Origin: Gammaproteobacteria bacterium
Lineage (GTDB): Bacteria; Pseudomonadota; Gammaproteobacteria; Arenicellales; UBA868
DNA length: 64,000 bases
Direction of reading: 5' to 3'
Assembly: GCA_022450155.1 (NCBI GenBank)
Contig: JAKUQR010000015.1
Span: 1-64,000, forward strand
Part shown: piece by piece, positions 6,085 through 32,629 of the stretch
Position numbering within the stretch: position 1 is the stretch's first letter
Layout: each line of letters opens with the position of its first letter
Notes under the pieces: model-generated
What the model was told of the DNA's origin: nothing
Seen by the model: the letters and a program-made list of their open reading frames with translations, nothing else
The model's database searches: none
Position numbers and translations under genes: made by a program

Positions 6085-6110
6085 ACCCGCTCCCGAATCC
6101 GGGAGCGGGT
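6085..6110 (-). terminator. Rho-independent terminator after the BMP importer operon
   Basis: Read on the minus strand, ACCCGCTCCC and GGGAGCGGGT form a GC-rich stem of 10-11 bp with a 4-6 base loop, followed by TTTTC. It lies 27 bases past the stop of the substrate-binding protein gene and just upstream of the 8-oxoguanine deaminase start. The U tract is short, so termination may be partial and allow some read-through into the deaminase and creatinase genes. Confidence 0.75.
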
Positions 6111-6136
6111 CTGTAAATACAACAATCAGCGAGTAC

Positions 6137-12386: not shown

Positions 12387-12392
12387 TGGCAG

Positions 12393-14696
12393 TTACGATG
12401 GCTGCAATGACTGAATCGCGTCCAGTACGGCTTCGGGTGTTGCCGGCGCACGCAACTGTGGCAATTCACCAGTATCGCTGATACTGGAGACCGCATCCGC
12501 GATTGCCTGGTGCACGGACAAGGCCAGCATCAGCGGCGGCTCACCAACCGCCTTCGAGCGGTATATCGTCGCTTCGATGTTTTCACTGCCCGCGTACATG
12601 TCCAGCCGAAAGTGCTCAGGCCGATCGCTACATACCGGTATTTTGTAGGTCGATGGTGCGTGCGTCATCATCCGACCGTCACTGTCCCACCACATTTCCT
12701 CAGTAGTCAGCCAGCCCACACCCTGAATGAAGCCCCCTTCGATCTGTCCGGCATCGACTGCAGGATTAAGTGAACGGCCGACATCGTGGAGGATGTCGAC
12801 TGCAACGACGCGGTTTTCACCCGTCAGCAGGTCTACCACCACTTCAGAAACAGCCGCGCCGTAGGCAAAATAGTAAAACGGCCGTCCGCGGGCTGTTTCG
12901 GCATCCCACCAGATTTTCGGTGTGCGGTAAAAACCAGTCGCGGAAAGTTGGACCCGGTGCAGGTAAGCCTCAAGTACAAGTTCAGAAAATGCTATCCAAC
13001 TGTCAGCGATGCGGACCTGCCCGCGCTGGAACTCTATATCATGTTCAGCGACGTCGTAATGGGTGGCCGCAAAAGCGGTGAGTCGTCGACGGATTGTGCG
13101 GGCGGCATTTTGTGCGGCCATGCCGTTGAGATCTGTCCCTGACGATGCGGCCGTGGCAGAGGTGTTGGGTACTTTACCCGTGTGTGTTGACGAGATCTGA
13201 ACCTGGTCTATGTCAATCTGTAGTTCGGCGGCAACCACTTGTGCGACCTTAATCAGGAGCCCTTGTCCCATCTCAGTACCACCGTGGTTCAAAAGAACGC
13301 TACCGTCTTTGTACACGTGTAACAGTGCACCGGCCTGGTTGAATGTCGTGTTGGTAAAAGAGATGCCGAATTTGACCGGCGTCAACGCGAGCCCACGCCG
13401 CAGGTATGGGTTTGAACTGTTGAACGCTTTTATAGACTGGCGGCGCTCACGGTAATGACTTGTCGATTCCAGTTGGTCAACCAACTCATCAAGAATGAAA
13501 TCTTCTACCTGCATGTGGTAGGGCGTCAGGTTGCGGTCTTTGTGCTCGTAAAAGTTAAGCCGTCGCACATCCAGGGGATCCAGGCGGCGTTCGTGTGCTA
13601 TGGCCTGAATGATCTGTTCTGCGATAAGCATCCCCTGCGGCCCCCCAAATCCACGAAACGCCGTATTGGATACCGTGTTGGTCTGACATCTGTCGGACCT
13701 GATGCGCACGGCCGGGTAATAATAGGCGTTGTCGGCGTGAAACATCGCCCGATCGTTCACTGGATCGGAGAGGTCGTGTGAACAGCCGCAGCGAGAAGCC
13801 ATGTGGATGTCAACGCCGACTATCCGCCCATCTTGGTCGTAGCCGACTTCCCACTGACTGTGAAAGTCGTGCCGTTTGCCCGTCATGATCATGTCGAGGT
13901 CCCGGTCCAGCCGGCATTTCACGGGCTGTCCGGTTTTGGCGGCAGCCAGAGCGGCGAGCACCGCCCATTGGGCAGCCTGCGTTTCCTTGCCACCGAATCC
14001 GCCCCCCATTCGCCGCACCTCTACGGTCACAGTGTGATCCGGCAGGCCCAGCACCTGTGCCGCGGCATGCTGAATTTCCGACGGGTGCTGGGTGGAGGCA
14101 TAGATGTGCACGCCGCCGTCTTCTTGTGGGATCGCCAGAGAAACCTGACCTTCCAGATAGAAGTGGTCCTGACTGCCGCTGACGGTGGTGCCGTGCAGGC
14201 GATGGGGGGCTTGTTCGATGGCGGCCTGCCAGTCATTACGTTGCATTTGCTTGGATTCACTGACGAAACTCTGGGTATTCAGAGCATCTTCGATCGTCAG
14301 GATCGGGTCTTCCGAATCAATGTCTATCTTGGCCAGGCGCGACGCACGGCGGGCGTCCTGGTAACTTCGTGCAACCACCGCAAAGATCGGTTCACCGAAA
14401 AACCGGATGCGGTCTTTGGCCAACAGAGGATCGTCCCCGGCGTGTGTGGGACTGATATCAAGGGTTCCCGGTACATCGTCTGCGCGCAGTACGGCAACAA
14501 CGTTTGCTGCAGATTCAACAGCAGACAGGTCCACACTGCGCAGCTGCCCACAGACCGCGTTGGCATACCCGGGGACCAGATGTAGCGTACCGCGGGGTTC
14601 TGGTATGTCGTCGATATATAGCGCTTCCCCGGTCGTGTGCTTTACGGCACTGTCGTGGCTGAGTGCTGCGCCCAGTATCGGTGCGCTATCAGACAT
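12393..14696 (-). CDS. xdhB: Xanthine dehydrogenase, molybdenum-binding subunit
   Basis: A 767-residue large subunit that hydroxylates hypoxanthine and xanthine to urate. Landmarks are RRMGGGFGGKETQ, FRGFGGPQG (with the substrate-binding Arg), NHGGTEMGQGL, TSATAASSGTDLNGMA and KAVGEPPLML (catalytic Glu). All align with Rhodobacter XdhB. The ATG at 14696 overlaps the xdhA stop in the sequence ATGTCTGA, a typical coupled start. An in-frame ATG ten codons upstream is possible but lies further inside xdhA. No truncation or disrupted motif was seen. It forms a heterotetramer with XdhA, with Moco supplied through XdhC. Confidence 0.94.
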   Translation of the reverse strand: MSDSAPILGAALSHDSAVKHTTGEALYIDDIPEPRGTLHLVPGYANAVCGQLRSVDLSAVESAANVVAVLRADDVPGTLDISPTHAGDDPLLAKDRIRFFGEPIFAVVARSYQDARRASRLAKIDIDSEDPILTIEDALNTQSFVSESKQMQRNDWQAAIEQAPHRLHGTTVSGSQDHFYLEGQVSLAIPQEDGGVHIYASTQHPSEIQHAAAQVLGLPDHTVTVEVRRMGGGFGGKETQAAQWAVLAALAAAKTGQPVKCRLDRDLDMIMTGKRHDFHSQWEVGYDQDGRIVGVDIHMASRCGCSHDLSDPVNDRAMFHADNAYYYPAVRIRSDRCQTNTVSNTAFRGFGGPQGMLIAEQIIQAIAHERRLDPLDVRRLNFYEHKDRNLTPYHMQVEDFILDELVDQLESTSHYRERRQSIKAFNSSNPYLRRGLALTPVKFGISFTNTTFNQAGALLHVYKDGSVLLNHGGTEMGQGLLIKVAQVVAAELQIDIDQVQISSTHTGKVPNTSATAASSGTDLNGMAAQNAARTIRRRLTAFAATHYDVAEHDIEFQRGQVRIADSWIAFSELVLEAYLHRVQLSATGFYRTPKIWWDAETARGRPFYYFAYGAAVSEVVVDLLTGENRVVAVDILHDVGRSLNPAVDAGQIEGGFIQGVGWLTTEEMWWDSDGRMMTHAPSTYKIPVCSDRPEHFRLDMYAGSENIEATIYRSKAVGEPPLMLALSVHQAIADAVSSISDTGELPQLRAPATPEAVLDAIQSLQPS

Positions 14697-16185
14697 GGGT
14701 GAAGGCCTGTGGCGAAGAAAACTCATAAACAGATGGCACGTCGGCCACGCTCAGAAACCGGAAATACTTCTCGAGCAGGTTCGCGGCAACCGTCCGGCGG
14801 TAGCGGGCACTCGCGCGCAGATCGGCAATAGGATCAAAATCCTGTTGCAGCGCATTTTGCGCCTCGGCCAGTGTTTCCTCATCGAGGCGGCGTCCTTCCA
14901 CTGCCGCTTCGCAACGACATGCCCGACGCGGTGTGGGGGCCATTCCGCCAAAACAAAAGCGGGCGCTGTGAACAACACCGTCGACCAGTGTCAGGGAAAA
15001 TGCCCCAAGAACCGCGCTGATATCCTGGTCGAAACGTTTCGCGATCTTCCAGCACCGAAAGTGTGGCTGTGGCTGTACCGAGAGCACGACCGACGCCACA
15101 TATTCGTTGTCTGCGAGATCCTGTTGTCCATAGTCGACGAAAAAATCTTCCAGCGGAATCTCTCGTTGTCCACTGGCGCTACCGATTCGCAGTGTTGCGC
15201 CCAGCGCGATCAGTGCGGGGGGTAGATCGCCGATGGGCGAGCCGTTCGCAATGTTGCCGCCAATGGTGCCCTGGCTGCGGACCTGACGCGCGCCAAACCG
15301 GCGCAGCAGGAGCCCAAGGTCCGGTGCAAGGCGGGTCAATTCAGGCTCTGCACGCTGTAGTGAAACCGCGGCGCCGATCTCGAGCTCGTCTGCTCGGCGA
15401 TTGACGGTTTTAAGGCTTGATATCTGTCCCAGATGGAGCAGCGTAGTGAGCTGCCGCCCCTCTTTTGTGATCCAAAGACCAATATCAGTGGCACCTGCGA
15501 GCAGGGTCGGTGGTGAGTGCTGGTCCGAAAGGTACGTGGCGAGTTCCGCTTCTGTGCGCGGTGCTGCAAACAGGCCCGACTCACATTCGACATGCAGTGT
15601 TTCATCCTGTTTTTGCCATTGGCTAAGTATGGACTGAACGGCGGTCTGCTGGTGTGACCAGTAGTCCGGTAACGGCTGGTTACAGGCCTGGCGGGCCGCA
15701 TCGATAATCGGCCCATAGCCCGTACACCGACACAGGTTGCCTGCGAGATGCTGGTCGATCTGTTCCCGATCAGGTGTTTGGATTGAATCCCCATGACGCA
15801 TATCGAGTTGCAATGCGGCGATCGACATCACGAAGCCCGGCGTACAGAAGCCGCACTGGGAGCCGTGGTGGTCAATCATGGCTTGTTGGGCTGGGTGAAG
15901 GGTGTCCGACGCCAGGTGCTCAACCGTCAGCACTTGTTTCCCATCCATCATGCCCAGCAGCAGGATGCACGCGTTGGCTGCCGTGTACTTGAGGCTGTTG
16001 TCGTACAACTCAGCGATCAGCACGGTACAAGCCCCGCAGTCGCCTTCGGCACAGCCTTCTTTGGTCCCGGTCAGGCATGCTTGGTTTCTGAGATAATCCA
16101 GCAGCGTGAGACCGGGATCATCCATACTGATTTCAAGCGGCGTACTGCCGAGGACAAAGCGGACCTGATTTCTACGGGGTTGCAT
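14689..16185 (-). CDS. xdhA: Xanthine dehydrogenase, iron-sulfur/FAD subunit
   Basis: A 498-residue small subunit carrying two [2Fe-2S] clusters and FAD. The ferredoxin-like domain has GCAEGDCGACTVL (Cys45, 50, 53). The second cluster domain has QCGFCTPGFVMS and LCRCTGYGPI. The FAD domain follows, with LLAGATDIGLW and GGNIANGSPIGDLPP. The start at ATG 16185 (MQPRRNQVRFVL) is chosen because the N-terminal domain of the family begins there; the open frame upstream overlaps the hydroxyisourate hydrolase gene. It sits 28 bases after that gene's stop and overlaps xdhB by 8 bases. Confidence 0.93.
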   Translation of the reverse strand: MQPRRNQVRFVLGSTPLEISMDDPGLTLLDYLRNQACLTGTKEGCAEGDCGACTVLIAELYDNSLKYTAANACILLLGMMDGKQVLTVEHLASDTLHPAQQAMIDHHGSQCGFCTPGFVMSIAALQLDMRHGDSIQTPDREQIDQHLAGNLCRCTGYGPIIDAARQACNQPLPDYWSHQQTAVQSILSQWQKQDETLHVECESGLFAAPRTEAELATYLSDQHSPPTLLAGATDIGLWITKEGRQLTTLLHLGQISSLKTVNRRADELEIGAAVSLQRAEPELTRLAPDLGLLLRRFGARQVRSQGTIGGNIANGSPIGDLPPALIALGATLRIGSASGQREIPLEDFFVDYGQQDLADNEYVASVVLSVQPQPHFRCWKIAKRFDQDISAVLGAFSLTLVDGVVHSARFCFGGMAPTPRRACRCEAAVEGRRLDEETLAEAQNALQQDFDPIADLRASARYRRTVAANLLEKYFRFLSVADVPSVYEFSSPQAFTHV

Positions 16186-16213
16186 GAGTCTGACTGTCCG
16201 ACGGGGTGAGGGT

Positions 16214-16564
16214 TCAACTCCCCCGGTAAGTGCTGTACCCATAGGGTGAAATGAGTAGAGGCACGTGATAGTGGCTCTGCGGTTCAGCAATGCCGAACCG
16301 AATGACCACCTCATCCAGGAAGGCTGGGTCCGGCAGTTCAATGCCGGCGTTTCGAAAATACTCCGCGGCATAGAACACCAGTTCGTATATGCCTGACACG
16401 AGATCTGCACCCTCTAAGATCGGTCCGGCATTCCGCCCGTCTACATTGGTGCGTCCTGTGGCAAGCACCGTGCGTTCGGGGTCGGCGCGATACAGGGCCC
16501 AGTTCATATTGTCCGCCGGTTTTCCGCGGGCCGTATCCAGCACGTGAGTTGTCAGTTGTCCCAT
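16214..16564 (-). CDS. 5-hydroxyisourate hydrolase (transthyretin-like)
   Basis: A 116-residue HIU hydrolase (HiuH/UraH family), which opens the ring of 5-hydroxyisourate to OHCU. The family signatures are visible: LTTHVLDTARGKPA at the N-terminus and HYHVPLLISPYGYSTYRGS at the C-terminus, ending in the invariant YRGS tetrapeptide. No signal peptide is evident, so it is probably cytoplasmic. It is the first gene of the leftward arm, 28 bases before xdhA, and diverges from puuE. PuuD supplies its substrate, and UraD, in the opposite arm, uses its product. Confidence 0.94.
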   Translation of the reverse strand: MGQLTTHVLDTARGKPADNMNWALYRADPERTVLATGRTNVDGRNAGPILEGADLVSGIYELVFYAAEYFRNAGIELPDPAFLDEVVIRFGIAEPQSHYHVPLLISPYGYSTYRGS

Positions 16565-16757: not shown

Positions 16758-17678
16758 ATGACCCCAAAGGATGTCTACCCACGTGACCTTGTTGGCTACG
16801 GGCGGTCTGTACCCGCCGCAAACTGGCCTGATCAAGCCAGGCTGGCACTTCAGTTTGTGGTCAACTACGAAGAAGGTGGTGAAAACAGCATATTACACGG
16901 TGATCCGGCGTCCGAAGCATTTTTGTCCGAGATCGTCGGTGCTGCGCCATGGCCTGGCCAGCGACATTTGAGTATGGAATCAATCTATGAATACGGCTCA
17001 CGTGTCGGGATCTGGCGTCTTTTGGACCTTTTCGAACAAAAACGGATTCCGATCACAGTTTTCGCCGTCGCGATGGCGCTTGCGCGGAACCCGGCGGTAG
17101 CCGACGCTGTGGTTAGTGCGGGGCACGAGATCTGCTCACACGGCTACCGCTGGATTGACTACCGGGACGTACCGGAGGCGACGGAACGAGAGCATCTGTA
17201 CAAAGCTATCGAGATCATTGAGCAGCTGACTGGTGAACGGCCATTGGGCTGGTATACGGGCCGGACCAGCGAGAACACCCGTCGCCTGGTGGCTGAGGAA
17301 GGCGGTTTCCTTTATGACGCTGATGACTACAACGATGACTTACCCTTTTGGTCAACGGTCAACGGTCATCAACACCTGGTTGTACCCTATACACTGGATG
17401 CCAATGACATGCGGTTTGCAACTCCACAGGGGTTTAACTCGGGTGATCAGTTCTTCAGCTATCTAAGAGACACATTTGACACATTGTACGAGGAAGGTTC
17501 CCGCATCCCACGGATGATGTCGGTCGGTCTGCATTGCCGCCTGGTCGGCAGACCTGGTCGGATTCGGGCGCTGGAACGGTTTATCGATCACGCCCAGAGC
17601 CACGAAGGTGTGTGGTTCTGTCGACGGATCGATATTGCCCGGCACTGGTGGGAACACCACCCGGTTGTCCAAGGTTAA
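16758..17678 (+). CDS. puuE: Allantoinase, polysaccharide-deacetylase fold
   Basis: A 306-residue cofactor-independent allantoinase of the PuuE type, hydrolysing (S)-allantoin to allantoate. Landmarks are the N-terminal PRDLVGYGRSVP and VNYEEGGENSILHGD, the deacetylase-like GHEICSHGYRW, and GWYTGRTSENTRRL followed by YDADDYNDDLPFW. This set distinguishes PuuE from true polysaccharide deacetylases. It starts the rightward arm. Its stop TAA overlaps the start of the OHCU decarboxylase gene as TAATG, so the two are translationally coupled. Confidence 0.94.
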   Translation: MTPKDVYPRDLVGYGRSVPAANWPDQARLALQFVVNYEEGGENSILHGDPASEAFLSEIVGAAPWPGQRHLSMESIYEYGSRVGIWRLLDLFEQKRIPITVFAVAMALARNPAVADAVVSAGHEICSHGYRWIDYRDVPEATEREHLYKAIEIIEQLTGERPLGWYTGRTSENTRRLVAEEGGFLYDADDYNDDLPFWSTVNGHQHLVVPYTLDANDMRFATPQGFNSGDQFFSYLRDTFDTLYEEGSRIPRMMSVGLHCRLVGRPGRIRALERFIDHAQSHEGVWFCRRIDIARHWWEHHPVVQG

Positions 17679-18217
17679 TGGTGACGGGTGATCGATTGCA
17701 GAACCAGCGTAAGCCCAGTGAAATGGGTCGCGAGGATTTCATCGCAGTGTTCGGTCATGTCTATGAGAAATCCCCCTGGATTGTCGACCAGGCCTGGGAC
17801 CAAGGTCTCGCGATTACCGAAGATACGCCTGAAGGTCTGCGCCTGGCCCTGGCCGCAATAGTCGAGGAGGCAGGTCCGGAACTCCAGCTCAGGCTGCTGC
17901 GCACACACCCTGATCTTGCTGGCAAACTGGGCGTGGGCGATGTCCTGACGGCCAAGTCCCGATCTGAACAAGCCGGTGCGGGACTGGACCAGTGTACAAA
18001 CGATGAATACGCTGAGTTTCAGTCTCTCAATCAGTGCTACACCAAACAATTTGGATTTCCTTTTATTCTTGCGGTACGCGGTCGCAATAGGCAGCAGGTG
18101 CTGGAGAATTTCCGCAGCCGAATCGACAATGATTGTGGCGATGAATTTGCCGAAGCGCTCAGACAGGTGCATCGTATAGCCTGGCTCAGGCTGCAGGAGA
18201 TCGAATTCTACGACTGA
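17678..18217 (+). CDS. uraD: OHCU decarboxylase
   Basis: A 179-residue 2-oxo-4-hydroxy-4-carboxy-5-ureidoimidazoline decarboxylase giving (S)-allantoin. Family landmarks are FGHVYEKSPWIVDQAW, LLRTHPDLAGKL with the catalytic His, SEQAGAGLDQ and NQCYTKQFGFPFILAVRGR. The start is ATG 17678, overlapping the puuE stop by one base (TAATG); an internal ATG 15 codons later (MGREDF) is a weaker alternative. The longer open frame reaching back into puuE is not coding. Together with PuuD and the hydroxyisourate hydrolase it completes urate to (S)-allantoin. Confidence 0.93.
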   Translation: MVTGDRLQNQRKPSEMGREDFIAVFGHVYEKSPWIVDQAWDQGLAITEDTPEGLRLALAAIVEEAGPELQLRLLRTHPDLAGKLGVGDVLTAKSRSEQAGAGLDQCTNDEYAEFQSLNQCYTKQFGFPFILAVRGRNRQQVLENFRSRIDNDCGDEFAEALRQVHRIAWLRLQEIEFYD

Positions 18218-18290: not shown

Positions 18291-18452
18291 GCGCAGTGCT
18301 GCAGCTGGATTTTCAGAGCATGTCTGAACACAGTTTATGTTCCAGCCTGTCCGGGGTTCTGCCATAGCGACGATGGATCCTGGCCTGGGATTCATCGGCA
18401 GTTGATACCGCGATCTACACAGTCCACTTTGAATCAGCGAGGAAGCGCAACT

Positions 18453-19484
18453 ATGGCATTGACGCCAGACTTTGGCCCCAGAGACATTTATGCACAGGTC
18501 GAAAAAACCGCGATTAAAGGTCGCCACCTGACTTTTATCGACGACCTGTCTGCGGATGAACTCGACAACCTTTTTCTGACCGCGGAACTGCTCGAGCCTT
18601 ACTGGCGGAGCGGTCTGGAACTGCTTCGGCACAGGATTTTGTGCACTTTGTTTTTCCAACCCAGTACCCGAACCCGGTTTAGTCATGAGACGGCCATGTA
18701 CCGCCTTGGTGGCAACGTTCTGACGGAGTCCAACCCGCTGGTTAGTTCGTCTGCAGCAAAGAACGAATCCCTTTACGATTCGATCCGGGTAATCTCGCAG
18801 TATGCCGATGTTCTTGTACTCAGACACCCCGATGATGAAAGAGTGCTGGCAGATATAGAACTTCTAGCGGCTGACACAATACCGATTATCAGCGGGGGTT
18901 ACGGCAATGTGACGCATCCCACACAGGGCCTTCTCGACATGTACACCGCGTGGCGGGTTTTGGGCGGTGATTTTTCGGCTATGAGCGTGATGATCGCCAC
19001 GCCCGACCTGTCGCGGGCGCGTTCCGGGCAGTCCTTTGCCCTGGGCCTGGCTCGAATGGGTGCCAGGATTGTGTATTCCGGTACGACCGGCCTACGTACA
19101 CCGGATGTCATCCGTGAAAAACTCGACGGGATGAACGCGACCTACGTGGAACACAATGACCTTACGATTCGGCAACAGGAGGATCTGATTGCCGACGAGG
19201 GTATAGATCTGTTGTATCTGCCGGGGTGTTCAGTCAAGAAAGGTGATCCAGGGCGGGATGACTTCATGAAAAAGATGGAGGAATACTATTTCACCGTTGA
19301 CGGGCTGGAAAAAATCCGTAAACAAAGTGGAAAGACTGTGGGTGTTATGCACTCGTTGCCACGTAATGAAGGAGAATTCGACTTCTGTATCGACCAGACA
19401 GCACACGAACTGTATTTCAAGCAGATCGGTTTCTCTGTACCACTGCGTATGTCATTGATTGCCAATATCGTCGGATTGACCTGA
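18453..19484 (+). CDS. ATCase-like carbamoyltransferase, candidate ureidoglycine transcarbamylase
   Basis: A 343-residue aspartate/ornithine carbamoyltransferase family protein. The carbamoyl-phosphate site is intact: STRTR at 71-75, an ATCase-like loop SSSAAKNESL near 98-107, and HPTQ at 155-158. The second-substrate loop reads MHSLPRNEG instead of the HPLP-R-EI of ATCase, so the co-substrate is probably not aspartate. ATG 18453 is chosen because GAGGAAG lies eight bases upstream. It sits between uraD/puuE and carbamate kinase, PucG and AllFGH. It is therefore best read as the enzyme cleaving allantoate with phosphate to ureidoglycine and carbamoyl phosphate, as proposed for an orphan transcarbamylase of Rubrobacter. 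A misplaced pyrB paralogue is the main alternative. Confidence 0.75.
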   Translation: MALTPDFGPRDIYAQVEKTAIKGRHLTFIDDLSADELDNLFLTAELLEPYWRSGLELLRHRILCTLFFQPSTRTRFSHETAMYRLGGNVLTESNPLVSSSAAKNESLYDSIRVISQYADVLVLRHPDDERVLADIELLAADTIPIISGGYGNVTHPTQGLLDMYTAWRVLGGDFSAMSVMIATPDLSRARSGQSFALGLARMGARIVYSGTTGLRTPDVIREKLDGMNATYVEHNDLTIRQQEDLIADEGIDLLYLPGCSVKKGDPGRDDFMKKMEEYYFTVDGLEKIRKQSGKTVGVMHSLPRNEGEFDFCIDQTAHELYFKQIGFSVPLRMSLIANIVGLT

Positions 19485-19507
19485 CTCTGTCTTTGGGCGT
19501 TGAGCAA

Positions 19508-20509
19508 ATGCCGTCAGAACCTAAGGTCGTCATCATCGGTACCGGCGGAACCATCGCTGGCCGCGCCGATTCGGCTACTAACCTCGCTTACAGTGCAGGT
19601 CAGTTGTCGATCGAGGATCTGCTGGAGGTCATTCCCGATCTGGCGAACGTTGCACAAATCAGTGGGCAGAACCTGTTTTCTTTGAATTCCAAGGATATGG
19701 GCCCTGCCCAGTGGCAGTTGCTCGCCCGGACGATCAGCGAGGAGGTCAGTAGAAAAGACGTGTCCGGTGTGGTGATTACCCATGGTACCGATACACTTGA
19801 GGAAGCAGCGCTGTTTCTGCATCTTACGCTCCGTACCGATAAACCAATCGTTTTGACCGGCAGCATGCGTCCGGCAACAGCACTGAGTCCGGATGGACCT
19901 GCCAATCTTTTCCACGCGGTGCAGGTGTGTGCGTCGGCAAAAGCTAGTGGCCGGGGTGTCTTGGTGGTGATGAACGGTGAGATTCTGCCCGCACTGCACC
20001 TAGTCAAGCGCCATTCCATCGCCACAAATGCATTCACTTCATCGCCCGCCGGGCCACTGGGGCGGGTCTATTCCGGCCGCACCTCCTTTTTTTCTGGCCC
20101 GACTAAAGTAGCGCTGGCTGGTGCATTTGGTATCGCACTGGCCAACGACGTGACGTTACCGGCTGTGGATATTCATTACGTTGCCGCTGGCAGTTCGCAC
20201 GCGGGACTGTTGTCCTGTGACTGGACAGAGCGCAACGGCCTGGTGATAGCCGGCTTTGGCAGTGGGGAGATTCCTGACGGGCTGGTGCCGGAGATTAACC
20301 GGCTGGCGGACGAAGGCATAACCATTGTTGTATCGTCCCGTGTCGCCGGCGTTGTAGTGTTGCCCGAAACGATGACTCTGACAGAGGGGCACCACATCGT
20401 AGCTTCGCGCCACCTGAACCCGCACAAGTCTGCACTGCTGCTTTCATTGACACTGGCAGCTGGAAAAGATGTAGCAGCTACTTTTATACGCACCGATGCA
20501 GACGGCTAA
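19508..20509 (+). CDS. Asparaginase-family amidohydrolase of the ureide cluster
   Basis: A 333-residue type I/II asparaginase homologue. The catalytic residues are present: Thr12 in TGGTIAG, the Tyr of the flexible loop (NLAYSAG), Thr94-Asp95 in THGTDTLEEA, and Lys166 in LHLVKRH. The substrate-carboxylate segment, GSQDM in E. coli AnsB, reads NSKDM (60-64), so the Gln is replaced by Lys. No signal peptide is seen, so it is cytoplasmic. ATG 19508 is chosen over a TTG five codons upstream. It lies between the carbamoyltransferase and carbamate kinase genes. That context suggests an amide other than asparagine, for example oxamate, but this is inference. Plain L-asparaginase remains possible. 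Confidence 0.75.
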   Translation: MPSEPKVVIIGTGGTIAGRADSATNLAYSAGQLSIEDLLEVIPDLANVAQISGQNLFSLNSKDMGPAQWQLLARTISEEVSRKDVSGVVITHGTDTLEEAALFLHLTLRTDKPIVLTGSMRPATALSPDGPANLFHAVQVCASAKASGRGVLVVMNGEILPALHLVKRHSIATNAFTSSPAGPLGRVYSGRTSFFSGPTKVALAGAFGIALANDVTLPAVDIHYVAAGSSHAGLLSCDWTERNGLVIAGFGSGEIPDGLVPEINRLADEGITIVVSSRVAGVVVLPETMTLTEGHHIVASRHLNPHKSALLLSLTLAAGKDVAATFIRTDADG

Positions 20510-20515
20510 ACCGCA

Positions 20516-21490
20516 ATGACTTCACCTACCCACTCACGGGAACTTCCTCCTCGGTTGTTGATCGCAGTGGGTGGAAATGCCATTCATCCGCCGGGCATTA
20601 AAGGCACATCTGAAGAACAAATGGATTCAGCCGCCCGCGCGGCCCAGACACTGTTACCCATTCTAGAACTGGAGCGTGAACTGATCGTTACGCACGGCAA
20701 TGGTCCAGGTGTCGGCAAAACAATGATGCGTCAGGCCCTGGCAAGACATCGGGTTGCACCCATGTCGGTTGATATCTGTGTTGCCAATACACAGGGTGTA
20801 ACGGCTTATCTGTTGATGCAGGCTTTCGAGAATGCGCTGCGCGGCGTTGGTAACCCAAGACACGCTATCGGCCTGGTTACACAGGTTGAGGTTGATCCGG
20901 CAGATCCTGCATTTAGACACCCGAACAAGCCCGTAGGATATTTTTTCTCTGAGCAAGAGGCACAAGAACTCGAAACTGAACTCGGTTGGGTTATGCGCGA
21001 AGATGCCGGCCGTGGATGGCGCCAAGTTGTGCCATCACCTGAGCCCAAACACATCTGCGACATCTCGCTGATCGATGGACTGGCCAGTCGCGGTACGATT
21101 GTGATTGCTGGCGGCGGCGGCGGTATACCGGTTGTCAGAGATGCCCACGGCATACGCCGGGGGATAGGAGCGGTGATCGATAAAGACCTGACTTCACAGC
21201 ACATGGCCAATGTACTGGGTATCGAACACATGTTGATCCTGACCGCGGTGCCGCGGGTGGCACTGGATTTTGGCGGGCCGAATGAAAGGGAGATTGCCCA
21301 ATGCTCGGCCCCACAGATGAGACAGCACCAGGCGGACGGGCACTTTGCACCGGGAAGCATGGGACCAAAGGTCGAAGCCGCAATGAGATTTGTTGAGCAG
21401 GGCGGCAGACGTGCGATCATCGCCCACCTCGAGCAAGCACTGCCGGCATTGATGGGAGACGCCGGTACCCACATTATTGCCAGCGACTGA
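20516..21490 (+). CDS. Carbamate kinase
   Basis: A 324-residue amino-acid-kinase-fold carbamate kinase (ArcC/AllK family), converting carbamoyl phosphate plus ADP to ATP, CO2 and ammonia. Landmarks are IAVGGNAI near the N-terminus, VTHGNGPGVG, CVANTQG, VIAGGGGGIPVV with the adjoining VIDKDL, and HFAPGSMGPKVEA near the C-terminus. It begins six bases after the asparaginase homologue, so the two are co-transcribed. No arginine deiminase genes are present. Its carbamoyl phosphate is therefore expected from the carbamoyltransferase upstream and from AllFGH downstream. Confidence 0.93.
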   Translation: MTSPTHSRELPPRLLIAVGGNAIHPPGIKGTSEEQMDSAARAAQTLLPILELERELIVTHGNGPGVGKTMMRQALARHRVAPMSVDICVANTQGVTAYLLMQAFENALRGVGNPRHAIGLVTQVEVDPADPAFRHPNKPVGYFFSEQEAQELETELGWVMREDAGRGWRQVVPSPEPKHICDISLIDGLASRGTIVIAGGGGGIPVVRDAHGIRRGIGAVIDKDLTSQHMANVLGIEHMLILTAVPRVALDFGGPNEREIAQCSAPQMRQHQADGHFAPGSMGPKVEAAMRFVEQGGRRAIIAHLEQALPALMGDAGTHIIASD

Positions 21491-21516: not shown

Positions 21517-22773
21517 ATGAGTAACAGCACAAATCCGGGGCCGAGTACCCTGTTTGAAGAACTTGATCCAGAACCAAGACTGCTGATGGGACCCGGTCCC
21601 GTCGATGTCTATCCCCGGGTTCTACAGGCAATGTCCAGGGCCATGCTTGGGCAATTTGATCCGCAGTTCACTACCTATATGAATCAGGTGATGGCGCTGT
21701 ACCGACGGGTGTTTCGTACTGAAAACCAGTGGACTCTGCTGGTTAACGGGACAGCCCGTTCAGGGATCGAGGCTTGTCTTACTTCGTTGATCTCGCCCGG
21801 GGATAAAGTGCTGGTACCGATTTTTGGCCGCTTTGGACATCTGCTGACCGAAATCGCACGGCGTGCCGGTGGTGATCTGGTCAACATAGAAACTGAGTGG
21901 GGTACGGTATTCGACCCCGAGCAGGTCACTGATGCGATTCGTGCGCATCAACCCAAATTGGTGGCGATGGTCCATGGTGATACGTCAACGACGATGCTGC
22001 AACCGCTGGGGGATGTCGGACGCTTCTGTCGTGAAGCCGGCATTCTGGTTTATGCCGACACCACCGCGACACTCGGCGGTAGTCCGGTGGAAACTGACGC
22101 CTGGTGCCTGGACGCGGTGTCCTCGGGACTGCAGAAATGCATGTCGGGACCACCCGGTACGTCACCCGTTACTTTGAGTGAACACGCAGTGGACAGGATC
22201 AACGCCCGCAAGCATGTCGAGGCCGGTATACGAGGCGCGGACAGCGTAGATGCTGAAGGTGCGATCATTCAATCCAACTACCTCGACCTCGCCATGCTGA
22301 TGGATTACTGGAGTCCTTTGCGTCTGAATCATCACACCGAGTCGACTTCTATGCTGTACGCTGCCCGGGAATGTGCTCGAGTAGTTCTCGGGGAAGGATT
22401 GGAAGCCGGTTTCGAGCGCCATAGACTGACTTCGCAGGCGCTGCGGGCGGGGTTGGCTGCAATGGGGCTTGGCCTCTTCGGTGATACCGAGCATCGAATG
22501 GCCAATGTGACCGGTGTCTACATACCCGAGTCGATCGAGAATGGCGACGCTGTTCGTGCCGCGTTACTGGACGATTTTGGTATAGAGATAGGGACATCAT
22601 TTGGTCCACTGCATGGCAAGATCTGGCGAATTGGCACTATGGGGTACGGCTGTCGTAAAACGAATGTTCTGCGCTGTTTAAGTGCGCTGGAGACTGTTCT
22701 GCGGCGAAATGGCTATACGGCTACTTCCGGGGCGGCTATCGATGCGGCCTATGAGGTCTACAGTGGTGTCTGA
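21517..22773 (+). CDS. pucG: Ureidoglycine-glyoxylate aminotransferase
   Basis: A 418-residue class V PLP aminotransferase. It has MGPGPVDVYPRVLQAMS near the N-terminus, NGTARSGIEA, HGDTSTTMLQPL, ADTTATLGG and the PLP lysine in SGLQKCMSGPPG (Lys207). These match ureidoglycine-glyoxylate aminotransferase (UGXT, PucG) rather than generic alanine-glyoxylate enzymes. The reaction is (S)-ureidoglycine plus glyoxylate to oxalurate (N-carbamoyl-2-oxoglycine) plus glycine. It is followed directly by the AllFGH genes that use oxalurate. The 3-prime end overlaps the small FdrA-C gene. The glyoxylate source is not obvious from this locus. Confidence 0.85.
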   Translation: MSNSTNPGPSTLFEELDPEPRLLMGPGPVDVYPRVLQAMSRAMLGQFDPQFTTYMNQVMALYRRVFRTENQWTLLVNGTARSGIEACLTSLISPGDKVLVPIFGRFGHLLTEIARRAGGDLVNIETEWGTVFDPEQVTDAIRAHQPKLVAMVHGDTSTTMLQPLGDVGRFCREAGILVYADTTATLGGSPVETDAWCLDAVSSGLQKCMSGPPGTSPVTLSEHAVDRINARKHVEAGIRGADSVDAEGAIIQSNYLDLAMLMDYWSPLRLNHHTESTSMLYAARECARVVLGEGLEAGFERHRLTSQALRAGLAAMGLGLFGDTEHRMANVTGVYIPESIENGDAVRAALLDDFGIEIGTSFGPLHGKIWRIGTMGYGCRKTNVLRCLSALETVLRRNGYTATSGAAIDAAYEVYSGV

Positions 22774-22969
22774 CCAGAACGACACACCGGCTGGCGGAAC
22801 TATCTCCTCTGAATTGCTGCACTCACCCCCCCGGGTCGTCAACGTAGGGCTTGCTGTTTTTGCAGCAGACTTGGATGCTCAGGATGTCGACGTTGTTCAC
22901 GTTGATTGGCGACCCCCGGCGGGTGGGGACAAAGACCTGGCACGATTGCTCTCAATGCTGACAGATTAA
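22766..22969 (+). CDS. Stand-alone FdrA/AllF C-terminal domain protein
   Basis: A 67-residue protein with RVVNVGLAVFAADLDAQDVD and VVHVDWRPPAGGDKDLARLL. This corresponds to the last ~55 residues of full-length FdrA in E. coli (VINIGLRSFALEL...VVHYQWSPVAGGNKKLARLLERL), here encoded as its own gene. The GTG start at 22766 overlaps the pucG stop as GTGTCTGA; ATG at 22751 is an alternative adding five codons. Its stop overlaps the allG start as TAATG. Such tight coupling on both sides argues that it is a real gene. The fdrA gene further on ends without this domain, so the protein probably joins the AllFGH complex in trans. Confidence 0.78.
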   Translation: MSDQNDTPAGGTISSELLHSPPRVVNVGLAVFAADLDAQDVDVVHVDWRPPAGGDKDLARLLSMLTD

Positions 22970-24240
22970 TGATGGACAGTATGTCGCTCGCCTCTGCAAT
23001 TCGGTCGGCCAATTCAAAGGCACTGGAGGTTCTGTTACAGGGTGACCCGGTACTGGTCGATGTATTGCCGGCAGAGAATCTCATCCCCGAATTGAGAGAG
23101 CGCAAGATTTTGCACGCTGGCCCACCCATCGAGTGGGACAGGATGTGCGGTCCGATGCGTGGTGCTATCGCAGGTGTGGTGGTATTCGAAGGCTGGGCTG
23201 GCGATCTCGACGACGCCGCCGATCAGGCGTCAAAAGGGTGCTTCGACTTTCATCCAAATCATCACTTTGCTGCCGTAGGTCCGATGACCGGACTGACGAC
23301 CTGCAGCCAACCCTTGCTGGTGGTCGAGAACCGCACAACGGGCAACCGTGCCTACTGCACCGTCAACGAGGGACTGGGCAAAGTGATGCGGTTTGGTGGC
23401 AATGACGAGTCGGTACGGGACAGACTGGCCTGGATTCGCGATTCGCTGGGCCCGGCCCTGGGCGCCGCGCTGCAGAGCTGCGGGGGTATTCCGCTGAGGC
23501 CGCTGGTTGCCCGCGGATTGACGATGGGAGATGAAATGCACCAGCGCAATGTGGCCTGTTCAAGCTTGCTCCTGCGCGAACTGGCACCTGCACTGGCGTC
23601 GGCAGTGGCAGACCACAGTGATCTGTCTGAAATGCTGGCATTCATGGGCAGCAACGATCAGTTTTTTCTCAACATCGCCATGGCGATGGGTAAGTCCATC
23701 ATGGACCCGGTTCGTGATATTGAACTGTCTACTGTGGTCACTGCGATGACGCGCAACGGCACCGATTTCGGAATTCGTGTCAGTGGACTGGGCGACGAAT
23801 GGTTTACGGCGCCGGTTGAGATGCCGGCAGGGCTTTACTTCCCAGGATTCAGTGCAGTCGATGCCAACCCGGATATGGGGGACTCAACTATTGTCGAGAC
23901 GATCGGACTGGGTGGGTTTGCAATGGCGGCAGCGCCCGCGGTTGCTGGATTTGTAGGCGCAGGATCTGTTGCCGAGGCGGCCGGCATTACCGCGAGAATG
24001 CGGGAGATCACGCTGGGTGAACATTCCGAGTGGACGATCGTGAATGAGAATTATCGAGGTGTAGCCACAGGTATTGATATCCGACTGGTGGTTGAGACCG
24101 GGATCGTACCAACGATCAATACCGGGATCGCTCATCGACAACCCGGGATCGGGCAGGTCGGTGCCGGTGTGGTCAAAGCACCGCTGGCGTGTTTTGAAAA
24201 AGCGCTTCGGGCGCTTGGAGAAAGGCTGGGTCTTTCATGA
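22969..24240 (+). CDS. allG: AllG (YlbE-like, DUF1116), oxamate carbamoyltransferase subunit
   Basis: A 423-residue DUF1116 protein matching E. coli YlbE along its length. Shared stretches include LHAGPPIEW, GPMRGAIAGVVVFEGWA, AVGPMTGLT, NEGLGKVMRFGG, GITMGDEMHQRN in the slightly varied form GLTMGDEMHQRN, TAMTRNGTDFGIRVSGLG and INTGIAHRQPGIGQVGAG. With AllF and AllH it is reported to form oxamate carbamoyltransferase, which cleaves oxalurate with phosphate to oxamate and carbamoyl phosphate. The start at 22969 overlaps the previous stop (TAATG), with a second ATG directly after. The end overlaps the fdrA start by four bases. Confidence 0.87.
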   Translation: MMDSMSLASAIRSANSKALEVLLQGDPVLVDVLPAENLIPELRERKILHAGPPIEWDRMCGPMRGAIAGVVVFEGWAGDLDDAADQASKGCFDFHPNHHFAAVGPMTGLTTCSQPLLVVENRTTGNRAYCTVNEGLGKVMRFGGNDESVRDRLAWIRDSLGPALGAALQSCGGIPLRPLVARGLTMGDEMHQRNVACSSLLLRELAPALASAVADHSDLSEMLAFMGSNDQFFLNIAMAMGKSIMDPVRDIELSTVVTAMTRNGTDFGIRVSGLGDEWFTAPVEMPAGLYFPGFSAVDANPDMGDSTIVETIGLGGFAMAAAPAVAGFVGAGSVAEAAGITARMREITLGEHSEWTIVNENYRGVATGIDIRLVVETGIVPTINTGIAHRQPGIGQVGAGVVKAPLACFEKALRALGERLGLS

Positions 24241-25727
24241 GTGTAACGGTCAATACAGTACGCGCCGGAGTTTTTCTCGACTCAGTCGTATTGATGCAGA
24301 TATCACGGAAATTGACGGCGATTCAGGGTGTGGAAGATGCAGCCCTGATGATGGCGACCCCAGCCAATCGGGACATTCTTTCTGACGCCGGCCTTCTTGA
24401 AGAGGGCACTATGGCCGGTCCCGGTGACCTGCTGGTCGCGGTGCGCGCCCAGGATCGGGCCATTGCTGATTCGACACTGCAGCGGGCAGCCGAACTGATG
24501 GAGCGCCCCGCGCAACGGAATGACGGTGCGCAAGAACTTCATCCACTTACGTTGCGCTCGGCCTGCCGCCAGCTGCCCACCGCGAATCTCGCTTTGATTT
24601 CGGTACCCGGTGACTATGCCGGGGCAGAAGCCCGTAAAGCGCTCAGGGCCGGTCTCAATGTGATGATCTTCAGTGACAATGTGCCGCTGGCCGAAGAAAT
24701 CTCCCTCAAACGAGAAGCCCGCGATCTGGGACTTGTTGTGATGGGCCCTGACTGCGGAACGGCGATTATCGACGGGGTGCCGCTGGCTTTTGCCAACGTT
24801 GTGCCGCGCGGCGATATTGCAATTGTGGGCGCTTCAGGTACGGGGATACAGGAGGTGTCCTGCCTGATTGCCCGCGCCGGTAAAGGTATCTCGCACGCAA
24901 TAGGTGTTGGTGGCCGTGATCTGACTGAAGCGGTTGGCGCTATCAGCACCTTGACTGCGCTTGACTGGCTGGAAAGAGATGCTGCAACCCACCACATTGT
25001 GCTCATTTCAAAGCCGCCGGCCCCTGGCGTTGCGGATCGGATCGTTCAGTTCATCCGCCGGAGTTCAAAAAGCTACACCGTCTGTTTGGTCGGTAGTGAT
25101 GACCTGGTGTTACCCGACAATGCGAAGCTGACGACTACTTTAAAAGACGCAGCGGTGGCCGCAGCAAATAGCGGCAAGGGTCTGGCAGCGGTGTCGGCTG
25201 TTCAGCGGGCACCGGCGGTAAGCGGATACGTTAGAGGACTTTATAGCGGCGGTACGCTCGCTGCTGAAGCACAGGCCGTCTTTCTTTCGCATAGACAGCC
25301 CGTTTTATCGAATGCGCCAATACCCGGGGCTGGGTTGTTTACTTCACAGCGCACAAACCACATCATGATTGATTTGGGTGACGATCGGTTTACCCGTGGG
25401 CGGCCACACCCGATGATTGACCCGGCTGTACGTGATGAGCCTATTCTTGCAGCGTTGTCAGACCCTGATGTGGGTGCGGTGTTGTTGGATGTGGTCATAG
25501 GTTTTGGTGCCCATCCCGATCCAGCTGGCCATCTTGCTGGTCTGTTAGAACGCCAAAGTCGTCCTTGTCCGGTCGTTATCGCATCTGTCACGGGTACAGA
25601 CGAAGATCCGCAGGTCCGGGCAAGACAGGTCAGTGTATTGGAACAGGCGGGTGTGATGGTTGCACCCAGCAATGCGGATGCTGCAGAGTTGGCGCTGGCT
25701 TGTCTGAACACCGGCAAAGACCCGTAA
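24237..25727 (+). CDS. allF: AllF (FdrA), oxamate carbamoyltransferase subunit lacking its C-terminal domain
   Basis: A 496-residue FdrA family protein with an acyl-CoA-synthetase/succinyl-CoA-ligase-like architecture. It matches E. coli FdrA from the N-terminus (SVVLMQISRKL, VEDAALMMATPAN) through ANLALISVPGDYA, NVMIFSDNV, VVMGPDCGTAII, GASGTGIQE, GVGGRDL and IDLGDDRFTRGRPHPMIDP to TGTDEDPQ. It stops about 59 residues before the end of E. coli FdrA (555 residues). The missing tail is the separately encoded protein at 22766-22969. ATG 24237 overlaps the allG stop (ATGA). Function in oxalurate phosphorolysis is inferred from the family and the allG/allH/carbamate kinase context. Confidence 0.87.
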   Translation: MSVTVNTVRAGVFLDSVVLMQISRKLTAIQGVEDAALMMATPANRDILSDAGLLEEGTMAGPGDLLVAVRAQDRAIADSTLQRAAELMERPAQRNDGAQELHPLTLRSACRQLPTANLALISVPGDYAGAEARKALRAGLNVMIFSDNVPLAEEISLKREARDLGLVVMGPDCGTAIIDGVPLAFANVVPRGDIAIVGASGTGIQEVSCLIARAGKGISHAIGVGGRDLTEAVGAISTLTALDWLERDAATHHIVLISKPPAPGVADRIVQFIRRSSKSYTVCLVGSDDLVLPDNAKLTTTLKDAAVAAANSGKGLAAVSAVQRAPAVSGYVRGLYSGGTLAAEAQAVFLSHRQPVLSNAPIPGAGLFTSQRTNHIMIDLGDDRFTRGRPHPMIDPAVRDEPILAALSDPDVGAVLLDVVIGFGAHPDPAGHLAGLLERQSRPCPVVIASVTGTDEDPQVRARQVSVLEQAGVMVAPSNADAAELALACLNTGKDP

Positions 25728-25733
25728 CTGAAA

Positions 25734-26738
25734 TTGAAAGTCAGCGTACCCCAATACCCAGATTCAAGACCTGCTTTCCCTTGGTTGAACACAGAACAGC
25801 GGCCAGTTCTCGGCTCTGTTTTGAGGGCCCAAAGCATCGGCTCTTTTGCTGTCCGTGAAATCAGTCAGACGGTAACCGGACGGATCGCTGCCGTGTTCGA
25901 TCGGAGTGTCTACGTTGATCTGGGCAATCAGTGGATCTGTGTCGGCGATGCCACGGTCGGTAACGGGCCGGTCAACCTGTTACTTGAGCCCACACCACAC
26001 CCGGGCGTATTCGGCGGTCTAGTAGTCGACCAGACTGTGCGGGTTTGTGCTGGTGCTGTGCATCTCGGCGAGCGACCCCTCAGCATAGACACGACGGCCA
26101 AAGTCTGGTCACCGCCATTGGTTTCCGACTGGACACACGATACGTTGACGCGTGGTCTTGATGCGCTCAATGTTATCAGCAGGGGCCGGGCCCCAAAGCA
26201 GGGGCTGGGTGTGTTTTTATGCAGCCCTGGTTCTGAATTATCAGACACTCGAGAAACGCGTGTTTGCGCGCCTGTCGTCTCCGAACTCGAAAGTTGGATT
26301 CGTGATCGGTTGGTTGACATGCGCTGTGTAGAGGGCGTGCCGGAATCGGTGCAACAGCTGATCGGCCTGGGCCCCGGACTCACACCCTCCGGCGACGACT
26401 TTCTTGGGGGTGTCCTCATCGCCCTTTCTCTTGTTCAACGCCGGGATATTGCCGCGTTGCTTTATGCCGATTTGTGTCCACGACTGTTGGCCAGAACCGG
26501 TCCGATCAGTCGCACGCATCTGGCCGCTGCGAGCGCCGGTCAGGGGCTTGAGACACTGCACCTGGCTATCAACTCAGTGATCGAAGGCAACGTGGAGATG
26601 ATTCCCGATCGACTGCGCCACGTTGACCGAATAGGTTGCTCCTCTGGTTGGGATGCCTTGGCGGGGGCCTACGTCGTGTTACGTGCTTGTCTTGTTCAGC
26701 CTGCCGCGTTGCATCGAAGCCCGTTGTGGACTAACTGA
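25734..26738 (+). CDS. allH: AllH (DUF2877), oxamate carbamoyltransferase subunit
   Basis: A DUF2877 family protein of up to 334 residues. The C-terminal half carries the family hallmark LIGLGPGLTPSGDDFLGGVLIAL, followed by HLAAASAGQG. E. coli YlbF-type AllH is the third component of oxamate carbamoyltransferase with AllF and AllG. No ATG is available near the N-terminus. TTG at 25734, six bases after the allF stop, gives the longest product; later in-frame TTG codons in the first ~35 codons are also possible, so the start is uncertain. The stop overlaps the following M24 gene by one base. Confidence 0.8.
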   Translation: MKVSVPQYPDSRPAFPWLNTEQRPVLGSVLRAQSIGSFAVREISQTVTGRIAAVFDRSVYVDLGNQWICVGDATVGNGPVNLLLEPTPHPGVFGGLVVDQTVRVCAGAVHLGERPLSIDTTAKVWSPPLVSDWTHDTLTRGLDALNVISRGRAPKQGLGVFLCSPGSELSDTRETRVCAPVVSELESWIRDRLVDMRCVEGVPESVQQLIGLGPGLTPSGDDFLGGVLIALSLVQRRDIAALLYADLCPRLLARTGPISRTHLAAASAGQGLETLHLAINSVIEGNVEMIPDRLRHVDRIGCSSGWDALAGAYVVLRACLVQPAALHRSPLWTN

Positions 26739-27910
26739 TGGCCGCACCATTTCAGCCGGACGAATACCGTCGTCGGCTGACGTCTGTACGAGCCGCCATG
26801 AACGAACGTCAGCTGGACGTTCTGGTCATCGGAGATCCGGCGAATATGAATTGGTTAACCGGATTTGACGCCTGGTCATTTTATGTACCCCAGGTGATGT
26901 GTGTGATCCCTGATGGTCCACCTGTCTGGATCGGCCGGGAAATGGACGCCGGTGCGGTGGGTTTGACCACGCATCTGGATGCACGCAGCGTTGTCCCTTA
27001 TCCGGAAGCGCTGGTGCAGCGCGACGATACCCATCCATCTGAATTCATGGCCGGATGGCTGCATGGTGCAGGCTTGGGGGATAAGCACATCGGTTACGAA
27101 AGCGACAGCTACTTTTTTTCACCGCGAGCACTTTCGGGATTGCAGTCAGGGCTGCCCGATGCCCGGTGGTCTGATGCTGACCGATTAGTGAACTGGATAC
27201 GTACAGTTAAAAGCCAAGTGGAGGTCGACATACTGGCACAGGCCGCGGCAATCGCTGGACGCGCCATGCAGGCAGCTTGGGATCAGGTTAAGCCCGGTGG
27301 ACGACAGTGTGATCTTGCGGCGGAGATTATGGCAGCCCAGATCAGGGGTACCGCCGATTTTGGTGGTGACCAGACGGCGATCTGTCCACTTATACTGGCT
27401 GGAGAAGGTGCATCGACGGCACATCCGCTGTGGACCGACGAGTGCTTTGCAAAAGATCAGACTGTTGCATTTGAGATCGGCGGCACACGTAAAAGATACA
27501 ACGCCGGGCTGGCGAGAACAGTGCACCTCGGTAAGCCTCCGCTTAAGCTGACGCAGACGCTCGCGGCTGTGAACGAAGGGCTTGATGCAGTGCTGGGTGT
27601 CCTGAAGGCGGGTGTAACAGCCGGTACAGTGCACAGTGCCTGGCAGGACGTACTGGATCATTATGGGTTGCAAAAGCCCAGCCGTATCGGCTATTCGATC
27701 GGTGTCGGGTATCCTCCAGACTGGGGTGAACGCACGATCAGTTTGCGTGCTGATGAGCAGACAACCATCCCGCAAGATGCCGTGCTCCATGTCATGTTGG
27801 GCATGTGGCTGGACGGTTGGGGAATGGAAATGAGCGAGACCGTACATGTCACGTCGACAGGCTGTAACTGTCTGACCCATTTTCCCCGCGAGTTGCACAT
27901 TGTGGATTGA
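26738..27910 (+). CDS. M24-fold hydrolase of the ectoine hydrolase (DoeA/EutD) type
   Basis: A 390-residue pita-bread fold protein. It has DPANMNWLTGFDAWSFYVPQ near the N-terminus, WIRTVKSQVEVDIL in the linker, and GYSIGVGYPPDWGERTISLR, GMWLDGWGMEMSET and HFPREL in the catalytic half. These are hallmarks of the DoeA/EutD subfamily, which opens the ectoine ring, rather than of Xaa-Pro peptidases. The usual metal-site DxG...D pattern appears as FEIGGTRKRYNAG, without the Asp pair. Its start overlaps the allH stop, so it is translated with the oxalurate genes. No other ectoine catabolic genes (doeB, doeC, doeD) are in the window. The substrate may be a purine-derived amide or ureide. Confidence 0.75.
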   Translation: MAAPFQPDEYRRRLTSVRAAMNERQLDVLVIGDPANMNWLTGFDAWSFYVPQVMCVIPDGPPVWIGREMDAGAVGLTTHLDARSVVPYPEALVQRDDTHPSEFMAGWLHGAGLGDKHIGYESDSYFFSPRALSGLQSGLPDARWSDADRLVNWIRTVKSQVEVDILAQAAAIAGRAMQAAWDQVKPGGRQCDLAAEIMAAQIRGTADFGGDQTAICPLILAGEGASTAHPLWTDECFAKDQTVAFEIGGTRKRYNAGLARTVHLGKPPLKLTQTLAAVNEGLDAVLGVLKAGVTAGTVHSAWQDVLDHYGLQKPSRIGYSIGVGYPPDWGERTISLRADEQTTIPQDAVLHVMLGMWLDGWGMEMSETVHVTSTGCNCLTHFPRELHIVD

Positions 27911-32362: not shown

Positions 32363-32629
32363 GTGGTCGATGGAGCGGGTTATTCGAAGACAATGCGTTG
32401 GCTGAATCTGGTGTTGAATCAGTCTGGTTCTTGTTCGCAGTCATACGGGAGACAGGACGGGACTTTATACTCAAAAGACACGTTACAAGACAATACCCAT
32501 TGAGTCTGAGTTGACCCAATGCGCCTCACTCATGTGGCCACGGTCGGGTCCGACTTGGGAATCTGCTATCCTTTTGGCTGCTAACAGGCTGAGCAGTCCT
32601 GGACAACACGATTAAGCCGGGGGGTGGAG
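32363..32629. promoter_or_regulatory. Divergent intergenic region between glpK and dgcA
   Basis: A 267-base region that must hold promoters for both glpK (minus) and dgcA (plus). TATCCT near 32568 on the plus strand is a possible -10 for dgcA, and TTGACC near 32510 is too far away to be its -35. I see no clear GlpR-like palindrome, hairpin or small ORF worth calling. Confidence 0.3.

Follow-up and report, generated by a model that had tools for sequence, protein, structure and literature searches.

An asparaginase-family amidohydrolase in an allantoate-degrading gene block, with oxamate or a ureide as its possible substrate

Homologues of bacterial asparaginases are usually annotated as asparaginases by default. 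A gene of this family in a gammaproteobacterium (contig JAKUQR010000015.1 of assembly GCA_022450155.1, of which positions 1 to 64,000 were analyzed and are here called the window) lies inside a block of purine-degradation genes, raising the question of which compound its product, here P0001, hydrolyzes. The original prediction was that it may convert oxamate to oxalate and ammonia.

The gene and its purine-degrading neighborhood

The frame at 19508-20509 is stop-free on the forward strand for 333 amino acids; the reverse complement is interrupted by stops in the same register, and the longest open reading frame on the opposite strand there is 161 amino acids. In a profile search the product matches PF00710 (208.2 bits) and PF17763 (60.7 bits), each above its cut-off, which together with the open frame bears out the original reading as an asparaginase homologue. 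P0001 is a homologue of type II asparaginases in which the catalytic residues are intact. Its score against the type II asparaginase model TIGR00520 is 298.6 bits, below the cut-off of 314.3, and no N-terminal signal sequence is visible from the ATG. The closest solved structure is 3nxk (208.2 bits), with Escherichia coli AnsB (3eca) at 201.2 bits, and no other PF00710 gene was found in the genome (95.5% complete). A predicted structure of P0001 was set aside, as it was built on a 10-row alignment with a mean pLDDT of 59.4 and values partly below 50 in the catalytic region. The gene and its neighbors are as follows.

11352-16410: xanthine dehydrogenase-like genes (read from sequence only)
16214..16564, reverse strand: hydroxyisourate hydrolase (TIGR02962, 123.3 bits, cut-off 87.45)
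16758..17678, forward strand: allantoinase PuuE (TIGR03212, 530.4 bits, cut-off 424.6)
17681..18217, forward strand: OHCU decarboxylase UraD (TIGR03164, 192.7 bits, cut-off 96.25)
18402..19484, forward strand: ATCase-like carbamoyltransferase with the UGTCase signature (PF02729, 131.6 bits)
19508..20509, forward strand: asparaginase-family amidohydrolase P0001 (PF00710 and PF17763)
20516..21490, forward strand: carbamate kinase (NF009007, 310.4 bits, cut-off 266; TIGR00746, 325.1 bits, below its cut-off of 358.25)
21517..22773, forward strand: ureidoglycine aminotransferase of the UGXT/PucG type, class V (nearest solved relatives)
22969..24240, forward strand: AllG, oxamate carbamoyltransferase subunit (PF06545, 298.1 bits; frame open from 22906)
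24237..25727, forward strand: AllF (FdrA), oxamate carbamoyltransferase subunit (NF004760, 512.3 bits, cut-off 433)
25734..26738, forward strand: AllH, oxamate carbamoyltransferase subunit (PF11392, 67.2 bits, cut-off 25)

As first read, the gene is flanked by those for the carbamoyltransferase and carbamate kinase, at distances of 23 and 6 bases, respectively, and it is the single gene between that for UGTCase and allH to which no pathway step is assigned. The aminotransferase was placed by its scores against ureidoglycine-glyoxylate aminotransferase 3nnk (541.7 bits) and PucG 3isl (445.8 bits), the next solved relative reaching 284.8 bits. The carbamoyltransferase falls below the TIGR00670 ATCase cut-off (176 versus 236.95) and carries the motifs STRT, HPTQ, HSLP and GCSVKK, identical in all 13 family members, so that the UGTCase signature (STRT, HPTQ, H(T/S)LP, and GX[SC] with a lysine three residues after the serine) is present in every one. 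The enzyme is thus a probable UGTCase by its motifs, predicted to convert allantoate and phosphate to ureidoglycine and carbamoyl phosphate. The UGTCase residues given in PMC4581275 match it, with H(T/S)LP assigned there to Rubrobacter, and one pseudo-ATCase row in Table 1 of PMC4016543 matches its motifs as well. That table has H[ST]LP under group 2 and Rubrobacter in group 1; the two papers thus disagree on which pseudo-ATCase group carries H(T/S)LP, and one numbering seems to be wrong. As PMC4016543 presents it, the activity itself, allantoate phosphorolysis, was demonstrated for Rxyl_2847 only.

From these observations of sequence, residues, operon and co-occurrence (below), we infer the catalytic steps in the organism, that of the substrate of P0001 most tentatively. 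Allantoinase would supply allantoate, which UGTCase would phosphorolyze to ureidoglycine and carbamoyl phosphate; UGXT would transaminate ureidoglycine to oxalurate; AllFGH would phosphorolyze oxalurate, giving oxamate and a second carbamoyl phosphate; and carbamate kinase would use both carbamoyl phosphates to form ATP. The assigned enzymes of this allantoate-degrading block would end at oxamate, in agreement with the original reading. P0001, acting in the cytoplasm, would use Thr15, with Tyr28 and a Thr94-Asp95-Lys167 triad, to free ammonia from an amide or ureide of the pathway.

Several further genes of the window were noted. An 8-oxoguanine deaminase gene (4698-6125, reverse strand; 655.6 bits, cut-off 532) adjoins genes of a BMP-type ABC transporter, which suggests purine uptake and use. 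Two M24/creatinase-fold genes are related to the ectoine hydrolase DoeA but score below its cut-off; one (26738-27910) closes the allGFH block, and the other (3444-4631) lies beyond the xanthine dehydrogenase-like genes. Adjacent relatives of DgcA (N-acetyl-D-Glu racemase) and DgcN occur at 32624-34698, each well under its cut-off.

Active-site residues and the lysine at the substrate site

Residues of P0001 were matched to those of AnsB (mature numbering) in a 96-row MAFFT alignment. P0001 shares with AnsB the PF00710/PF17763 fold family and the Thr/Tyr plus Thr-Asp-Lys catalytic residues: AnsB Thr12, Tyr25, Thr89, Asp90 and Lys162 correspond to Thr15, Tyr28, Thr94, Asp95 and Lys167, all kept and unvarying in 13 of 13 family sequences. 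The catalytic residues originally named are therefore present but need renumbering, as the nucleophile is Thr15 (12 being the AnsB number) and the lysine is 167 rather than 166. At the substrate site Ser58 is retained as Ser61, and P0001 departs from AnsB at three positions, with Lys62 for Gln59, Glu254 for Asn248 and Met289 for Glu283, so that the Gln59, Asn248 and Glu283 of a type II L-asparaginase are all replaced. Two of these changes fall in the following segments.

19685..19699, forward strand: codons N60-S61-K62-D63-M64, NSKDM (GSQDM in AnsB), K62 aligned to AnsB Gln59
20366..20374, forward strand: codons E287-T288-M289, M289 aligned to AnsB Glu283

The alignment upholds the original observation of NSKDM where asparaginases have GSQDM. 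Lys62 and Met289 are each invariant across the 13 family sequences, among which one pair is identical, and Lys62 is therefore no sequencing accident. Position 254 is Glu in nine of the 13 and Thr in four. Position 287, two residues before Met289, is Glu in 12 and Asp in one, and this acidic residue might, judging from the alignment, compensate for an altered alpha-amino pocket. The original prediction gave the GSQDM segment the role of holding the substrate carboxylate; we take that role to suit Ser58 better than Gln59, and take Gln59, Asn248 and Glu283 of AnsB to be binders of the substrate alpha-amino group.

How far the lysine marks a different substrate was judged against 78 nonfamily homologues (L039 to L116), which are the best listed matches to the family alignment, so that fractions among them are not those of all asparaginases. 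Within this set the residue at the site is Lys in 13, Gln in 13 and Glu in 33. The 13 Lys-bearing sequences are spread over several lineages, although eight form one Burkholderiaceae clade, and on the tree the Lys label needs six changes, at least four of them forced by well-supported branches. This tree is midpoint-rooted, with several long rows, some of them Lys-bearing, unsurely placed according to the program's own warning; L037 and L038, repeat contigs of L027 and L025, were left out of it, and in the 78-row table L035 and L036 were held separate because of their distance. On these grounds we reject the idea that the lysine marks oxamate activity.

A Glu283 equivalent is missing from 12 of the 13 Lys-bearing homologues compared with 19 of the 65 others listed (Fisher 3e-5, ignoring descent), an association that rests on few lineages because of the Burkholderiaceae clade. 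The argument that losing Glu283 would prove a substrate other than asparagine is in turn weakened by the absence of this residue from 31 of these 78 matches (one of them, L093, an incomplete sequence), by a solved asparaginase that departs from GSQDM (below) and by the acidic residue that the family retains two places ahead of Met289. The exception among the Lys-bearing homologues, L053 (DSKDM), keeps a Glu at this position, scores 451.9 bits against TIGR00520 and is found within a dcu-asparaginase-argH-aspA run, as would be ordinary for a gene of aspartate and asparagine use; the gene contexts of L042, L064, L070, L092 and L076 were left out, as their ORF calls were too uncertain. The Gln is likewise absent from a solved enzyme labeled "L-asparaginase 2" (9bad), which has GSTNI in place of the canonical GSQDM. 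The original prediction named a lysine common in ordinary bacterial asparaginases as the result that would speak against it, and to a degree this is what is seen (13 of the 78 listed, L053 included). Lys alone tells little about substrate; loss of the Glu anchor tells somewhat more, though solved asparaginases vary here too.

Conservation of the block and its spread

Of 33 family genomes, the same 12 have both the asparaginase and the UGTCase gene, and the other 21 have neither (Fisher 2.8e-9, ignoring descent). The order UGTCase, asparaginase, carbamate kinase, UGXT, AllG, AllF, AllH is kept in 12 other family loci, from 11 genomes, up to the limit of each contig. A close AllG (at least 64% identical) is found in 11 of the 12 asparaginase-bearing genomes, and in the twelfth, G012, the contig ends early. 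Median identity to the window across the 12 loci is 89% for UGTCase, 79.5% for the aminotransferase, 78% for carbamate kinase and 60% for the asparaginase, with 78% for AllG (11 loci), 66% for AllF (nine loci) and 58.5% for AllH (eight loci). The asparaginase is by this measure among the faster-changing members of the block, and the P0001 clade lies on a long branch of the tree (0.96 changes per column). Records L037 (Gammaproteobacteria isolate ALOHA) and L038 (Acidiferrobacteraceae isolate NP122) suggest a marine habitat for these relatives. Two block copies, L027 (G014:C87) and L024 (G010:C32), are nearly identical to those of genus g1 and occur in genomes of other genera, which may reflect recent transfer or mis-binned contigs; G014 additionally has its own diverged copy, and G010 is counted among the 12 genomes.

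The UGTCase-containing block looks rare, with none found outside the family in the samples searched. UGTCase had no match among 397 other genomes of the phylum (Pseudomonadota; E <= 1e-40), none among 368 other genomes of the class (1e-45; a sample that overlaps the 397) and only the same 12 among 109 genomes of the order (1e-42). Viral contigs gave no match, and the 16 plasmid records matched are all less than 60% identical, 10 annotated as aspartate carbamoyltransferase and six without annotation there. AllG has relatives in 172 plasmid records. Five of these regions were inspected, and within 9 kb of AllG no asparaginase is annotated in their gene tables, which are incomplete; three are allFGH-arcC clusters, and those of Rhodococcus and Methylocystis are not, the Rhodococcus region having a glutaminase A gene about 5 kb away. 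On one conjugative IncF plasmid of E. coli (NZ_MW800638.1, L139), genes of the allFGH type are accompanied by arcC and by genes for a cysteine hydrolase and a cytosine permease.

A published parallel concerns the neighborhood. In Rubrobacter, the asparaginase-like gene Rxyl_2849 adjoins UGTCase Rxyl_2847 and carbamate kinase Rxyl_2848 in a purine-degrading cluster (PMC4016543), the same adjacency as in the window (18402-21490) and in the 12 other family loci. In contrast to the window, the published table of that cluster lists no UGXT or AllFGH. The same paper reports asparaginase genes beside pseudo-ATCases of several marine bacteria, in a passage that does not mention AllFGH; pseudo-ATCases with such a neighbor include those of Nitrosococcus, Kangiella, Synechococcus and Rhodopirellula. 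The asparaginase tracks UGTCase more clearly than AllFGH: both accompany it in this family, whereas the Rubrobacter table has UGTCase without AllFGH, and the five AllG plasmid regions inspected have no asparaginase annotated nearby.

Candidate substrates and a second oxamate hydrolase

That P0001 belongs to the purine (allantoate-degrading) pathway is very probable. It probably acts on one of the pathway's nitrogen compounds, though not demonstrably on oxamate. Oxamate is the single likeliest substrate, if only tentatively so, with ureidoglycine or ureidoglycolate close behind. Under this reading P0001 would release oxalate and ammonia, Lys62 helping to hold a carboxylate. Oxamate is kept foremost because no other end product has a free amide, because the alpha-amino pocket is altered, and because UGXT takes ureidoglycine and two PF04115 matches may account for ureidoglycolate. 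It is not proven because Lys also occurs in ordinary-looking asparaginases and an HpxW-like gene lies elsewhere in the genome. Since oxamate is a shorter molecule than asparagine, its carboxylate presumably could not reach the usual pocket unchanged.

In Klebsiella the reaction originally proposed for P0001 is that of HpxW, an Ntn hydrolase (PF01019) of unrelated fold; P0001 itself matches PF00710 and PF17763 only. The original statement that no other oxamate hydrolase is present agrees with the window's contig, on which no PF01019 gene was found, but appears to fail for the genome as a whole. PF01019 is represented there by at least five full-length genes, a sixth (contig C18) matched as two parts of a single frame, and two fragmentary ones. 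Four of the five full-length proteins were compared with solved structures, and that of G000:C23:9689-11287 (locus L142, 9659-11293) was closest to 5hft (288.6 and 243.7 bits for the two chains), ahead of the "cephalosporin acylase" 2nlz (256.5 bits), 2i3o (217.5 bits) and a gamma-glutamyltranspeptidase (157.4 bits). We take 5hft, deposited under the label gamma-glutamyltranspeptidase, to be the Klebsiella HpxW of Hicks and Ealick 2016. Over its small subunit 108 of 185 residues (58%) are identical, and the first Thr, presumably the processing residue, is kept. In the window's genus this gene lies with a Rieske oxygenase gene, plus lpd-dut-coaBC where the contig reaches, and there is no hpxWXYZ operon, which by the context rule given in PMC3560190 makes its identity as an HpxW-like oxamate hydrolase likely but not certain. 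Close orthologues (56 to 100% identical, two matched partly) occur in eight of the 12 asparaginase-bearing genomes and in none of the 21 others; the remaining family genomes have relatives of 34 to 39% identity or none. No close orthologue was found in genus g2 (G004 and G009, 86% and 92% complete), where another oxamate hydrolase would be needed if oxamate is used, leaving room for the asparaginase.

Against oxamate stand the HpxW-like gene in eight of 12 genomes, the recurrence of Lys elsewhere, the five inspected AllG regions with no asparaginase annotated nearby, the Rubrobacter table without AllFGH, and the lack of any oxalyl-CoA decarboxylase above cut-off in the genome. A hydrolase for oxamate is also not obligatory. 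In the E. coli allantoin route, AllFGH (the oxamate transcarbamylase) and the carbamate kinase AllK likewise turn oxalurate into oxamate and ATP, and E. coli is described as not metabolizing oxamate further (PMC11326118). There oxalurate comes from ureidoglycolate, whereas in the window it would come through UGTCase and UGXT.

The tracking of UGTCase pulls instead toward ureidoglycine or ureidoglycolate, on the product side of that enzyme, a reading we regard as only somewhat less likely than oxamate. By comparison of structures, (S)-ureidoglycine differs from L-asparagine in having NH in place of the side-chain CH2 and would hence fit the pocket of an asparaginase; if its ureido group were hydrolyzed, the end products would be ammonia and glyoxylate, the latter being the amino acceptor of the adjacent UGXT. 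Asparaginase and UGTCase co-occur in 12 of 12 genomes, the window's carbamoyltransferase bears the UGTCase signature, and the (S)-ureidoglycine aminohydrolase model TIGR03214 has no match in the genome. Ureas, however, are poor substrates for an asparaginase-type nucleophile; ureidoglycine is already used by UGXT; the alpha-amino-binding residues of AnsB are altered in P0001; and two matches to ureidoglycolate lyase (PF04115, 44.9 and 39.0 bits, cut-off 23) mean that another route to glyoxylate may exist. A related idea, ureidoglycine deamination, was proposed for Rxyl_2849 by Barba et al. 2013 (PMC4016543), and the asparaginase-like genes near UGTCase and carbamate kinase in Rubrobacter, and near pseudo-ATCases in marine bacteria, fit it.

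An ordinary L-asparaginase or asparaginase/glutaminase, supplying ammonia and aspartate within a nitrogen-scavenging operon, would fit the intact catalytic residues and the fact that no second PF00710 gene was found in the genome, and neither Lys62 (given L053) nor the missing Gln (given 9bad) is foreign to such an enzyme. Against this stand the linkage to the purine block in all 12 genomes that have the gene, the long branch of the clade, the score under the TIGR00520 cut-off and the altered alpha-amino pocket, and we consider it unlikely. It is equally unlikely that P0001 hydrolyzes some other operon-linked amide or ureide, such as oxalurate, 2-oxosuccinamate from transamination, or an amide connected with the M24 and methyltransferase neighbors. 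Loss of Gln59 and Glu283 would suit substrates without an alpha-amino group, and 12 of the 13 listed Lys homologues lack Glu283; yet oxalurate is already the substrate of AllFGH, and no gene points to the remaining candidates.

No asparaginase acting on oxamate is described in the literature matches listed (title and start of abstract; subscription journals thinly covered), and none found joins UGTCase, UGXT and AllFGH in one route. Taken together, it is reasonably probable that an asparaginase fold has been recruited to purine degradation in this apparently marine gammaproteobacterial family, acting on oxamate or a ureide and completing an allantoate pathway with two carbamoyl phosphates and up to two ATP per allantoate. 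If so, the operon would combine UGTCase, UGXT and AllFGH in a single ATP-yielding route for purine nitrogen, and the 2013 proposal on the asparaginase-like gene found in UGTCase clusters could be put to a direct test.
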